Part shown: positions 28,663-31,100 of the stretch, piece after piece
Position numbering within the stretch: position 1 is the first letter of the stretch
Layout of the letters: every line of letters starts with the position of its first letter
NCBI GenBank assembly: GCA_030615855.1
Contig: JAUWYL010000002.1
Coordinates: 80,283 to 144,282, forward strand
From: a bacterium
Lineage (GTDB): Bacteria; UBP18; UBA7526
Length of the DNA stretch: 64,000 nucleotides
Direction of reading: 5' to 3'
Program-made: the position numbers and the translations under genes
Notes under the pieces: model-generated
What the model saw: the letters and a program-made list of their open reading frames with translations, nothing else
The model's database searches: none
Told to the model about the DNA's origin: nothing

Positions 28663-28930
28663 TGGTGCGGACGGAGGGAGTCGAACCCCCAAGCCAAAAG
28701 GCATACGGTCCTAAGCCGTAGCGCCCCGCCCCATTTCCCCTACCTTATATTGCATTGTGGGCGAGAAAGGACTCGAACCTCCACGGGTTTCCCCACATGG
28801 TCCTAAGCCATGCGCGTCTACCAGTTCCGCCACTCGCCCAAAATTACTTATTGTTCGATTAATGAATGGGGCGGGGTAAATCTACCAATGGAGTTTATCC
28901 CGCACATTTATTGTGCGGGGCCACGTCCGC
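28663..28930 (-). pseudogene. Interrupted tRNA-Leu(UAG) carrying an inserted intact tRNA-Leu
   Basis: Read on the minus strand, the pieces are the 5' acceptor GCGGACGTGGC (28930-28920), a D-loop piece ATTGGTAGA (about 28889-28881), and everything from CGCTACGG through the T-arm to CGTCCGC-ACCA (28723-28663). The anticodon loop reads CTTAGGA (UAG). The 5' and 3' acceptor strands pair perfectly, so this was one gene. A 7-bp-stem hairpin (28899-28919) interrupts the D-stem. A second insertion (about 28724-28880), bounded by a perfect 12-bp inverted repeat, carries tRNA-Leu(UAG) 28758-28839. CCA is encoded. Confidence 0.85.
28758..28839 (-). tRNA. tRNA-Leu (anticodon UAG), intact, nested inside another tRNA-Leu
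   Basis: The acceptor GGGCGAG pairs with CTCGCCC. The D-loop is GGAACTGGTAGAC, the anticodon loop CTTAGGA, the long variable arm GTGGGGAAACCCGTG, and the T-loop GTTCGAGTC. CCA is not encoded. The flanks are 12-bp inverted repeats AATGGGGCGGGG (28865-28876) and its complement (28724-28735). Confidence 0.93.
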
Positions 28931-29044
28931 CCGCCTTCGTCCAACTTCTGCCTCTTTTCAGAGTAGACTTCGGCGGGCAAGCTTATTAAGATGGCTCGCC
29001 ATCCGAAGCCTGCTACCTTAAAAATTCAGAAACAAGGCGAAGGA

Positions 29045-29120
29045 TGGTACCCCCACCAGGGCTCGAACCTGGGACACCCTGATTAAGAGTCAGGTGCTCT
29101 TCCAACTGAGCTATGGGGGC
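29045..29120 (-). tRNA. tRNA-Lys (anticodon CUU)
   Basis: GCCCCCA acceptor with one G-U closing pair, D-arm GCTCAGTTGGAAGAGC, anticodon loop CTCTTAA, T-loop GTTCGAGCC and encoded CCA. It is not interrupted. A 28-bp hairpin (29124-29151) precedes it. Confidence 0.93.
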
Positions 29121-29123
29121 TGG

Positions 29124-29151
29124 TCCCGTTGATAACTTCGTATCTACGGGA
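29124..29151. repeat. CCCGTTGATAA..TATCTACGGG hairpin, copy 1
   Basis: A 28-bp imperfect palindrome with a close copy at 45669-45696 (24 to 25 of 28 positions). Confidence 0.75.
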
Positions 29152-29175
29152 CTGGCGCGCCTGGTAGGATTTTTA

Positions 29176-29272
29176 CCCCGTTAGATGTTCTTGTCTCACT
29201 CGCCTCGCCTACTCCCTTAGATGGATGCTACGCCTATCTCACGGGATAAACGACACAATCTATCTAACGGGG
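29176..29272. repeat. 97-bp inverted-repeat element in a tRNA T-loop
   Basis: CCCCGTTAGAT at 29176-29186 and its exact complement at 29262-29272. A looser inverted match continues inward (TTGTC against GACAC-AA). No open reading frame and no tRNA is inside. Confidence 0.8.
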
Positions 29273-29317
29273 CGGGCCCACGACCTAGTGGTCCGACCTC
29301 GCCAAATGCGACTCTAG

Positions 29318-29391
29318 CGCCTCCGGAGGGAGTCGAACCCCCAACTTTGTGGTCCGAAGCCACACGCTCTATCCAATTGAGCTACGGAGGC
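29318..29391 (-). tRNA. tRNA-Arg (anticodon UCG), intact, nested inside a split tRNA-Arg
   Basis: GCCTCCG pairs with CGGAGGC. D-arm GCTCAATTGGATAGAGC, anticodon loop CTTCGGA, T-loop GTTCGACTC. The discriminator is G and CCA is not encoded. Flanks CCTCGCCAAATGC (29297-29309) and GCATTTGCGGGG (29390-29401) are near-inverted copies. Confidence 0.93.
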
Positions 29392-29476
29392 ATTTGCGGG
29401 GCTAATCCGCTGAGCTACAGGCGCTGAAACACGGATAGGCACAGATTTCAGACACAGATGATCACAGATTTACAAC

Positions 29477-29550
29477 AATGCGCTTCGCCTGCCTCGTCTA
29501 AACAAGAACCTGACTTCGTTAGAACCTTGTTTATCCGCGGAAATCCGTAA
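29477..29550. repeat. Diverged TTAGACGAGGCA element and adjacent hairpin
   Basis: An inverted, diverged copy of the element at 20373 (29477-29501) runs into a hairpin made of AAACAAG and CTTGTTT (about 29509-29545). CACAGAT words and their complement flank it (29448-29572). Confidence 0.6.
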
Positions 29551-29573
29551 TCCATCCGTGCTAATCTGTGTTC

Positions 29574-29754
29574 TGGGGTGGCTGATCCCGATTTTACTTA
29601 TTGGGGTGAGCGAGGGGACTCGAACCCCCGACCACTTGAGCCACAGTCAAGTGCTCTAACCAACTGAGCTACGCTCACCATTTTACTAAAATTAAAATCG
29701 GGACGACCACCTGGGCCACAACCAGGTGCTCTAACCAACTGAGCTATAGCCACC
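29574..29754 (-). pseudogene. Interrupted tRNA-His carrying an inserted intact tRNA-His
   Basis: The 5' piece (29754-29704) contains G-1, GTGGCTA, the D-arm and the full anticodon arm with a TTGTGGC loop (GUG anticodon), and ends at GGTGGTCG. The 3' piece TCAGCCACCCCA (29585-29574) restores the acceptor strand, C73 and CCA. The T-arm is replaced by an insertion bounded by a perfect 11-bp inverted repeat, TCCCGATTTTA (29586-29596 and 29693-29703), which begins exactly at both tRNA breakpoints. tRNA-His 29602-29679 lies inside. Confidence 0.88.
29602..29679 (-). tRNA. tRNA-His (anticodon GUG), intact, nested inside another tRNA-His
   Basis: G-1 is present (29679) and pairs with C73. Acceptor GTGAGCG with CGCTCAC, D-arm GCTCAGTTGGTTAGAGC, anticodon loop CTGTGGC, T-loop GTTCGAGTC, CCA encoded (29602-29604). 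Flanked by the 11-bp inverted repeats described for the host. Confidence 0.94.
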
Positions 29755-29811
29755 AAATTTTTGTCCCACAAAAATTTGATCTTGAACCATCCCTCGCTTA
29801 TCAGTTCGGGA

Positions 29812-29888
29812 TGGCGCGCCCGGCAGGATTCGAACCTGCGACCGTCGGATTAGAAATCCGATGCTCTATCCAACTGAGCTACAGGCGC
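29812..29888 (-). tRNA. tRNA-Arg (anticodon UCU)
   Basis: GCGCCTG pairs with CGGGCGC (one G-U). D-arm GCTCAGTTGGATAGAGC, anticodon loop TTTCTAA, T-loop GTTCGAATC, CCA encoded. It is uninterrupted. A CCATCCC/GGGATGG hairpin overlaps its 3' end and an AAATTTTTGT/ACAAAAATTT hairpin follows. Confidence 0.93.
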
Positions 29889-29950
29889 CTCGTCACTGGC
29901 ATTCCCTGTTAGGCAAAGTTCTAGCTAGGCTACCCTTTGGCATAAAAGAT

Positions 29951-30700
29951 TTATCGCCAAGCATGAAAAACCATTCTGTTCTGTTGGATTGCCTGAAAGA
30001 ATGGCCGGCGGGGCTTTTTTATCTTACGACGGATAGCTCTCGCCACTCTGCGGGAAAGAGAGCGGTATTGTGAAACTATCCTAATCTTTCGGAATCCAAC
30101 AGTTTTTAACATAGCTTCCACAGCAGCAGGATTTGGCCCCCACCAACTCGTTGGATCATTCGATAATTCTGCTTCAGGATAAAACCTCATGACTGGACAT
30201 TTAGTCAAAGCCATGTCTACATATGTCTCTAGTACCAATTGATCTCCAGTGACATTGAAAACTCGTTCAAGAGCAAAAAGGGGGTGACGTAAATGATAAA
30301 GCACTCCCAGTAATAGAACTAAATCAAAAACACCGACTTTATCAGGAGAAATGTCATACACATCCATTTCCATATCCTCAACTTTGGAATTGAGAGTTTT
30401 CCGTGCAAGCTCAAAACCTGCCTTCGTACCCCATCCTTCTCTATTTTCTTCATTCCAACAAGGTAAATCAGTTGCCAGAACACGCTTGGCTCCGCGACGC
30501 TCCGCTTCAAATGAATAAAATCCATCCCAAGCACCTATATCAAGCACGGTCTTTCCTCGTAGATTTTCAGGAAGTTTAAGTATCTTTTTCCAGTCTTTAC
30601 GAGGATCAATACAGCCAGGTGTTATTACTCCATTCCCTAAGTCAATCGTGTGCCACCACTTGATTTTCGCTACTTCTTTTTTTAAATCATTTATATTCAT
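29951..30700 (-). CDS. SAM-dependent methyltransferase, CmoB/DUF1698-like
   Basis: 249 residues. The N-terminus KIKWWHTIDLGNGVITPGC, then WKKILKLPENLRGKTVLDIG and WDGFYSFEAERRGAKRVLATD, matches the CmoB-like (tRNA wobble uridine) methyltransferase domain. LGVLYHLRHPLFALE and VLETYVD follow. True CmoB is longer, and look-alikes modify sugars in surface loci, so the substrate is open. It lies alone between tRNA genes, 250 bp from each side, with no operon partner. Its basic C-terminus (SLSRRVARAIRRKIKKPRR) would suit RNA or membrane contact. The flanks 29889-29950 and 30701-30811 show no further gene. Confidence 0.75.
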   Translation of the reverse strand: MNINDLKKEVAKIKWWHTIDLGNGVITPGCIDPRKDWKKILKLPENLRGKTVLDIGAWDGFYSFEAERRGAKRVLATDLPCWNEENREGWGTKAGFELARKTLNSKVEDMEMDVYDISPDKVGVFDLVLLLGVLYHLRHPLFALERVFNVTGDQLVLETYVDMALTKCPVMRFYPEAELSNDPTSWWGPNPAAVEAMLKTVGFRKIRIVSQYRSLSRRVARAIRRKIKKPRRPFFQAIQQNRMVFHAWR

Positions 30701-30811
30701 AATACCCTTCCTCCCTATGGAATTTCGTCTAACGGAAAATAATTGAGATACTTCGTTTATGTCCAGTTCTCACTTTTTATCCGTGCTTATTCGTGTCGTT
30801 ATCCGTGTTCG

Positions 30812-31056
30812 TGGTCGGGGTGCCGAGATTTGCCCGCCTCCGCCAGAGGCGGATGAGCCTCGGGCTCAAGAGGTGGATCCGCCTTCAGCGGAAACTTGGA
30901 CCTGTCCGATTGAGCCAATCTAATTTAATGGTCGGGAAGGCGGGATTCGAACCCGCGACCTCGTGCTCCCAAAGCACGCGCGCTAATCCAAGCTGCGCCA
31001 CTTCCCGTCATTCGGGCTCAATCGGACCGCGCTAAGCCAAACTGCGCCACACCCCG
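30812..31056 (-). pseudogene. Interrupted tRNA-Pro carrying an inserted intact tRNA-Pro
   Basis: The 5' piece (31056-31028) is CGGGGTGTGGCGCAGTTTGG plus CTTAGCGCG, the proline acceptor and D-arm. The 3' piece (about 30834-30812) ends CACCCCGACCA, which pairs with the 5' acceptor and encodes CCA. The anticodon arm is replaced by an insertion bounded by a perfect 13-bp inverted repeat, GTCCGATTGAGCC (30904-30916 and 31015-31027), enclosing tRNA-Pro 30929-31007. A further 70 bp of CCGCCTCCG/CGGAGGCGG palindromes separates the insertion from the 3' piece. Confidence 0.8.
30929..31007 (-). tRNA. tRNA-Pro (anticodon UGG), intact, nested inside another tRNA-Pro
   Basis: CGGGAAG pairs with CTTCCCG. 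D-arm GCGCAGCTTGGATTAGCGC, anticodon loop TTTGGGA, T-loop GTTCGAATC, CCA encoded. The 13-bp inverted repeats of the host insertion flank it. Confidence 0.93.
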
Positions 31057-31072
31057 ATTCCGACCATCGGGA

Positions 31073-31100
31073 CGCCTAAGTCGAACTGCGCCACTTCCCG
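31073..31100 (-). pseudogene. tRNA-Pro 5' fragment
   Basis: CGGGAAGTGGCGCAGTTCGA plus CTTAGGCG equals the acceptor and D-arm of a proline tRNA. It then stops at a CCCGATGG/CCATCGGG-type junction 16 bp before the next proline 5' piece. No matching 3' end was found outside. Confidence 0.75.

Follow-up and report, generated by a model that had tools for sequence, protein, structure and literature searches.

Few parts of a genome are regarded as slower than its tRNA genes. How, then, does an intact tRNA gene come to lie inside a broken tRNA gene for the same amino acid? The question is raised by one tRNA cluster in the window, by which we mean the whole 64,000-nucleotide stretch of DNA analysed here, from a little-known bacterial lineage. 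ARAGORN and Rfam identify intact genes for Leu-TAG, Lys, Arg-TCG, His, Arg-TCT and Pro-TGG on its minus strand. Lys and Arg-TCT are un-nested; each of the Leu, Arg, His and Pro genes is surrounded by broken copies of the same isotype. All four same-amino-acid nests described in an earlier, sequence-only reading are thus present by both programs and by their broken copies. Each is a small, hairpin-ended DNA insert that holds a complete tRNA gene and splits another tRNA gene of the same amino-acid specificity; the disrupted gene and the one that replaces it thus occupy a single site. Anticodons occur almost all once in the window genome, and the nested gene is therefore the sole intact copy. Such tRNA-in-tRNA nesting seems to be undescribed: we found no account of it in the open-access literature, where absence is not proof of absence.

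Anatomy of the four nests

All features of the nests lie on the minus strand. In the Leu nest, the 3' part of the host, from anticodon arm to CCA (28663–28723), matches the uninterrupted Leu-TAG gene of the relative G002 at 98%. It is followed by the right arm AATGGGGCGGGG (28724–28735), the nested intact tRNA-Leu(TAG) (28758–28839; ARAGORN and Rfam), the only copy of its anticodon, and the left arm CCCCGCCCCATT (28865–28876), the arms forming a perfect 12-bp inverted repeat. Beyond them are a D-loop piece of the host (28877–28889), recognised by comparison with the G002 gene, a tRNA-less hairpin in the host's D-arm (28890–28920), where G004 has a different hairpin stem, and the host's true 5' end (GCGGACGTGG, 28921–28930). 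The broken Leu gene had been seen correctly, but its 5' end had been placed at a GTGCGGG near 28.9 kb that belongs to this second hairpin.

The nested intact tRNA-Arg(TCG) (29317–29391; ARAGORN and Rfam), again the only copy, is bounded by a left arm CCCCGCAAATGC (29390–29401) and a right arm (29297–29309), which pair over ~12 bp apart from a single mismatch and a single inserted base; this repeat is therefore decayed. Outside the arms we find the host 5' part (29402–29424), a host piece running from anticodon to T-stem (29277–29296) that is the same in G001 and G002, and the host 3' end (29153–29171). The nesting claimed earlier holds here, but the clean repeat does not, and a further tRNA-less insertion with arms CCCCGTTAGAT (29172–29276), in the T-loop of the host, had gone unnoticed. 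The 5' anticodon strand of the Arg host is missing in all three species. The remaining pieces are fully conserved among the three, which exceeds expectation for dead sequence unless the locus has been exchanged between lineages. The cluster spacers of G000 and G004, 94% identical in the Leu–Arg part, suggest that such an exchange has taken place.

In the His nest, the order is host 3' part (29574–29585), right arm (29586–29599), nested intact tRNA-His(GTG) (29602–29679; ARAGORN and Rfam), the sole His tRNA found in the genome, left arm TCCCGATTTTAATT (29690–29703) and host 5' part, which extends to the T-arm (29704–29754) and matches a resident His gene of a relative at 98%. The arms form a 14-bp inverted repeat in which 13 of 14 positions pair. 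In the Pro nest, the nested intact tRNA-Pro(TGG) (30929–31007), the only copy and identical to the un-nested Pro gene of G001 and G002, lies between 13-bp arms, GGCTCAATCGGAC on the right (30904–30916) and GTCCGATTGAGCC on the left (31015–31027), with the host 3' end at 30812–30825 and its 5' part at 31028–31056. Rather than the simple two-part host first supposed, this nest is layered: an outer, third Pro 5' fragment (31073–31100), common to G004, represents an older layer. Inverted repeats of 11–13 bp had been reported for all four loci; that length fits Leu and Pro, His is longer and Arg imperfect. A single arm sequence for the four nests was considered and rejected, as the arms vary by locus.

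Recurrence, empty sites and decay in related genomes

Units of this kind extend well beyond the window, with ~20 nests in total across six genomes of the phylum. An automated test of these genomes found both halves of one broken isotype flanking 12 of 191 tRNAs, and in 12 of 12 the nested isotype was that of the flanking halves; the same arrangement surrounded none of the 159 control tRNAs from other phyla that formed our sample beyond this one. Because of this matching and the empty control set, chance is excluded as the origin of the nests, which have arisen repeatedly. The inserts in tRNA genes measure ~100–150 bp, and folding places one cloverleaf atop the extended T-arm stem of another. 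Hosts frequently lack a half or carry further insertions, and the hosts in which tRNA-less hairpins were seen also contain a nested tRNA. The Thr nest of G002 is a matryoshka.

Empty tRNA sites, looked for in relatives, were found. In the same cluster of the same-genus relatives G001 and G002, His and Leu are uninterrupted, and further empty sites occur for Lys (G000, G001 and G002), Leu-CAG (G000, G001 and G005), Met (G000 and G002) and Gly-TCC (G003). The Lys gene of G004 gives a direct comparison: away from the event itself, its filled site is the same as the empty ones, and at the event the T-loop TTCG has become CCCG, the element, then TGAA. This insert holds a tRNA copy with no difference from its host, and little beyond the tRNA has been copied. 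A tRNA-less element in a broken Leu host occupies the same T-loop place and has the same ends as the G004 Lys element.

Hosts also decay. The 5' half has been lost from the His host in G004 and from the Arg-CCT host in G001 and G002, and the 3' half from the Gly-TCC host in G000. Gene bodies with the same anticodon differ among close relatives, as for Val-CAC, which is represented by five different genes in five genomes.

A family of short inverted-repeat elements

Short inverted-repeat elements, members of one family spread through the genome, have ends (CCCCGCACC) that match the cassette arms. We counted 35 of these in 821 kb, 18 with an exact 4-bp target-site duplication (TSD; ~0.14 expected), and in a second survey 20 of 63 elements had a 4-bp TSD, compared with 0–1 when the positions were shifted. 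A pattern search for CCCGCAC..GTGCGGG arms returned 48 places, and the reversed control none; 7 of the 48 hold a tRNA, all within same-isotype tRNA remnants. Unlike the tRNA-less copies, those bearing a tRNA lack the 4-bp TSD. Most nests across the family have a CCCCG/TCCCG end in common. A given tRNA does not come with a fixed arm sequence, the related Leu-TAG and Leu-CAG inserts of G004 having different arms, and the arm type CCCCGCACCWWW carries many different tRNAs. Elements are found nested in elements, and four tRNA-less hairpins lie in frame within open reading frames (L152, L154, L160 and L162).

Several candidate sources for the family were tried and rejected. In the six draft genomes, we did not find the Y1 transposase expected of a REP/RAYT origin (PF01797, present in 5 of 14 controls) or DDE_Tnp_1 (PF01609), the two transposase families looked for, nor the reverse transcriptase (PF00078) of retrotransposition or a group II intron; in the window, Rfam reports neither a group I nor a group II intron. 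No autonomous element of 0.3–4 kb with the family ends occurs in 821 kb of genome. IVS protein genes (PF05635) are many, but those at the ten loci examined have no flanking CCCCG arms. The exact cores of the nested His gene and of the nested Val gene of G005 are absent from viral contigs; phage matches to nested His reach 80–90% at best and are uninformative on the donor.

The family resembles miniature inverted-repeat transposable elements (MITEs), being short, with terminal inverted repeats common to many copies (35 in 821 kb; 48 places against 0), an exact 4-bp TSD in about half of those surveyed and no coding capacity seen. It differs in that copies in tRNA genes carry an isotype-matched tRNA and no TSD, and neither Y1 nor DDE_Tnp_1 was found as partner transposase. 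Rickettsia palindromic elements (RPEs) are likewise small palindromic units, and the tRNA-less form here shares their in-frame position in protein genes, a likeness in form; RPEs are not known to carry a replacement copy of the interrupted gene, as the nests do. Integrative elements that use tRNA genes as their target likewise preserve a functional tRNA, whose 3' end they restore by integrase-mediated site-specific recombination. In the nests, by contrast, the interrupted tRNA encloses a complete second one, and ~100–150 bp cannot hold an integrase. The IVSs of 23S rRNA are stem-bounded inserts in loops of a structured RNA gene, often encode a four-helix IVS protein and leave an rRNA that functions in pieces, whereas the hosts here are tRNAs that decay while function resides in the insert. 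In organelle genomes, double-hairpin elements and GC clusters are mobile hairpins that settle in RNA genes; unlike the nests, they are not known to have a cargo tRNA or an isotype match. The tRNA-Sec gene nested in selB (PMC8124441) is also a tRNA gene inside another gene, but its host is a protein gene and there is no inverted-repeat cassette.

A probable route of tolerated insertion and tRNA gene turnover

These observations make it probable that inverted-repeat elements interrupt tRNA loops, that only inserts with a working tRNA of the same isotype survive, and that tRNA genes are thereby turned over in place, whether the tRNA arrives or is captured. Short elements of the MITE-like family would insert into tRNA gene loops, and because almost every tRNA is single copy, insertion would be tolerated solely when the element's hairpin holds a complete same-isotype tRNA. 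The nested gene would be driven by transcription through the host, its tRNA would be freed from the stem by RNase P and 3' processing, and the host shell would be dead debris, later decaying or deleted, until the cycle repeats. Observations that weigh against this reading are the missing TSD of tRNA-bearing copies, the locus-varying arms, the conserved Arg remnants, and the searches that returned no transposase of the two families or reverse transcriptase in six drafts and no autonomous element in 821 kb.

The earlier proposal of mobile cassettes carrying a replacement tRNA survives in part. Arms from a repeated, TSD-flanked family, interruption of tRNA arms (mostly loops), matching isotypes and empty sites all agree with it; movement of the cassette as a unit does not follow. 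We give slightly under an even chance to the idea that mobile inverted-repeat elements form a class that persists in essential tRNA genes of single copy because each element delivers that same tRNA itself, and that this drives continual in-place replacement of the tRNA set. Arrival of the tRNA together with the element, and its capture at the tip of a hairpin already inserted, we regard as about equally likely.

The latter variant, to which we give somewhat less than an even chance, would begin with the insertion of a tRNA-less hairpin into a single chromosome copy. The hairpin tip would then be cut, or copied across, and repair or template switching would capture a same-isotype tRNA there; the tRNA-bearing cassette would never move. 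Hairpin insertion followed by capture fits equally, because tRNA copies lack a TSD, arms are untied to tRNA type (G004 Leu-TAG and Leu-CAG) and the G004 Lys copy, with little beyond the tRNA, equals its host. Occupation of the same T-loop place by tRNA-less hairpins and the nesting of elements in elements point the same way. Capture requires, however, that a cell with its sole tRNA broken survive beforehand, by polyploidy or a second allele, and many different tRNAs share the arm type CCCCGCACCWWW.

An intron-like or IVS-like excision of the hairpin from the transcript, leaving host and nested tRNA both functional, had been offered as the alternative and is very unlikely. The insertions do fall in arms, the folded host is predicted to keep its cloverleaf, and the pieces of the Arg host are conserved across three species; yet the loss of host halves in relatives (His, Arg-CCT, Gly) tells against the reading. 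The Arg host without its 5' anticodon strand, the variable insertion sites and boundary sequences, and T-loop bases that are replaced rather than merely interrupted speak against it too. A tRNA intron, bulge-helix-bulge or group I, would leave complete exons to join, and the host halves here have been lost or internally deleted. Ordinary tandem duplicates, later broken by functionally unlinked palindromic repeats, are more improbable again: duplication is frequent in tRNA clusters and G004 has one tandem Thr pair, but relatives have single uninterrupted genes and no tandem pairs, the intact tRNA lies exactly between both arms and both halves, and the G004 Lys gene differs from its relatives by the insert alone. 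Repeat misassembly in metagenome bins is the least credible: draft contigs, mostly metagenomic, are all we have, but separate assemblies contain the same nests (G000 and G004 for Leu and His; G000, G001 and G002 for Arg-TCG and Arg-CCT; G000 and G002 for Gly) and the named records come from different projects.

On the preferred reading of in-place turnover, the nests display intermediate steps of tRNA gene replacement, a natural record of how a gene is replaced through interruption and rescue. Essential genes could in this way serve a selfish element as targets, and care is called for in this lineage when tRNAs are annotated or used for comparisons.

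Nested tRNA genes in the window and its relatives

The draft genome comprises 1.375 Mb in 45 contigs, one of which, C35, contains the window. The window's minus-strand tRNA cluster is flanked by a gene for a Ham1-family (RdgB-like) protein and by a putative trigger factor gene, which we take to be one from its protein. ARAGORN and Rfam together identified six intact tRNAs in this cluster. Four of them (Leu-TAG, Arg-TCG, His-GTG and Pro-TGG) sit between inverted-repeat arms, and in all four cases the arms are in turn enclosed by the 5' and 3' parts of another tRNA of the same isotype, the host, as the sequence-only reading had described. 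Some of its details changed. The Leu host starts at 28921-28930 and not at GTGCGGG, which is part of a separate D-arm hairpin. The Arg nest stood, but its arms are decayed and the host T-loop has a second, tRNA-less insertion; the Pro nest stood too, but the structure includes a third, outer fragment, common to G004. All four nested genes are intact. Of the 38 tRNA genes identified in the genome no other has one of their anticodons, and only CAT is present more than once. A DUF1698-like methyltransferase gene (PF08003; 29951-30700) lies between Pro and Arg-TCT, a position occupied by other DNA in G004 and by no DNA in G001 and G002. The tmRNA at 37259-37608 has an unusual predicted tag, ANEQLAYVC, ending without the usual alanines.

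The cluster recurs in two genomes of the same genus (G001 and G002) and in one of the same family (G004). His and Leu are whole in G001 and G002 where the window has nests. The nested His matches the G002 His in 66 of 80 alignment columns and the nested Leu matches its G002 counterpart in 61 of 84, while for Pro the window's nested gene and the un-nested gene of G001 and G002 are identical in sequence. Arg is nested alike in the window genome, G001 and G002. G004 has Leu and His nests in common with the window, and in addition a Lys nest in which inner gene and host match.

Nests and arms across the phylum

In six genomes of the phylum we inspected the sequence around 191 tRNA genes and counted, by eye, some 20 distinct nests at about 17 loci. 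In addition to those in the window, these included Arg-CCT, Gly-TCC, Cys, Glu-TTC, Val-TAC, Leu-CAG, Lys, Met, two different Val-CAC, Ser-TGA, Thr-TGT, Leu-CAA and Arg-CCG. At one G002 locus (L091, around 2200-2470), Thr-CGT lies in a broken Thr that itself lies in another broken Thr, with separate arms for each layer. An automated test, requiring both halves of one isotype at most 170 bases from a tRNA, was positive for 12 of the 191 tRNAs, with the isotype of the halves equal to that of the nested gene in all 12, and for none of 159 control tRNAs from other phyla. Uninterrupted counterparts were found for the Lys (three genomes), Leu-CAG (three, one being the Leu at 38323-38409 of the window), Met (two), Val-CAC, Gly-TCC, Cys and Arg-CCG hosts. 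In the Glu-TTC nests (G001 L085, G005 L141 and G003 L112), host and nested types (GCCGCC vs GTCCCC) are swapped between species, as if sequence had been exchanged between host and nested gene. Genes with the same anticodon (Val-CAC, Thr-CGT, Leu-CAA) have quite different bodies even in close relatives among the six genomes, which reads as a sign of fast gene replacement.

The arms belong to a repeat family. Scanning the six genomes for CCCGCAC-80..140-GTGCGGG, with every place listed on both strands, gave 48 places, and the reversed-pattern control gave none. Seven of the 48 contain a tRNA, each within remnants of a same-isotype tRNA; the rest enclose some 100 bases of non-tRNA sequence. In 821 kb of the window genome, 18 of 35 elements (arms of at least 9 bp starting [CT]CCCG) are bounded on either side by an exact 4-bp direct repeat, against about 0.14 expected; TTCA/TGAA, TCAA, TAAA/TTTA and CTCA were seen. 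Among loci read before that survey, the repeat was present in 20 of 63, against 0-1 in a shifted comparison. Such exact repeats are signs of transposition. The tRNA-bearing copies have the arms of the family, but their two ends differ from each other (TTCA..CARG; in the opposite sense, CCYG..TRAA), and the 4-bp duplication, looked for at these copies, was absent. Four ORFs (L152, L154, L160 and L162; asparagine-synthase-like, PriA-like helicase and others) contain short in-frame hairpins of the family that lack a tRNA, and these add some 10 residues or slightly more, for example NPARASTSGV.

MITEs, Rickettsia palindromic elements, rRNA intervening sequences and tRNA-site integrative elements resemble separate parts of the nests, but the tRNA-bearing form fitted none of the four in the membership tests run. 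Because no tested system fits, and a search of the open-access literature found nothing resembling tRNA-in-tRNA nests, we rate them, with caution, as a new kind known from draft sequence alone.

Break sites, host decay and probable exchange between lineages

Hosts are broken in the D-, anticodon- or T-arm, chiefly in loops. The clearest break is in the G004 Lys host, where the T-loop TTCG is replaced by CCCG-[element]-TGAA and the gene otherwise equals the uninterrupted gene of three relatives. At the identical T-loop position, the broken Leu host of G004 contains another element, which lacks a tRNA but has the same ends as the Lys element. In the predicted folds of the G004 Lys and window His nests, one cloverleaf sits on the extended T-arm stem of a second (z about -4 to -5 against shuffles).

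The host tRNAs look dead. The 5' half is gone from the His host in G004 and the Arg-CCT host in G001 and G002, the 3' half from the Gly-TCC host in the window genome, and the 5' strand of the anticodon stem is missing from the Arg-TCG host in all three species (G000, the window genome, with G001 and G002). All tRNA-less hairpins observed inside tRNAs are in hosts that also contain a nested tRNA. Against this, the Arg host pieces are identical in three species, although trigger-factor third codon positions are 78.5% identical between the window genome and G002.

In the Leu-Arg part of the cluster (28600-29430), the window genome and G004, which belong to different genera, share 94% identity over spacers and arms, compared with 68% at the third codon positions of the neighbouring gene. 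tRNA clusters have therefore probably been exchanged between lineages, which would account for nests being present in these two genomes yet absent from G001 and G002.

A proposed mechanism

The tRNA may have arrived with the element or been captured by the hairpin in place; we consider these about equally likely. The three families searched in the six draft genomes (Y1, DDE_Tnp_1 and reverse transcriptase) yielded no gene. The window genome has 10 genes for PF05635, the 23S rRNA intervening-sequence protein; the other five genomes have up to 10, and 14 control genomes have none.

Where an essential tRNA gene exists in a single copy, an insertion into it would be lethal unless the insert brought the same tRNA, which would explain the perfect isotype match without any isotype targeting. 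The nested gene probably depends on transcription through the host, since its own leader is only a few bases long. The host debris would then decay or be deleted. Recombination between host and nested gene at their similar 5' ends could yield a clean gene, perhaps exemplified by the Pro locus in G001 and G002.
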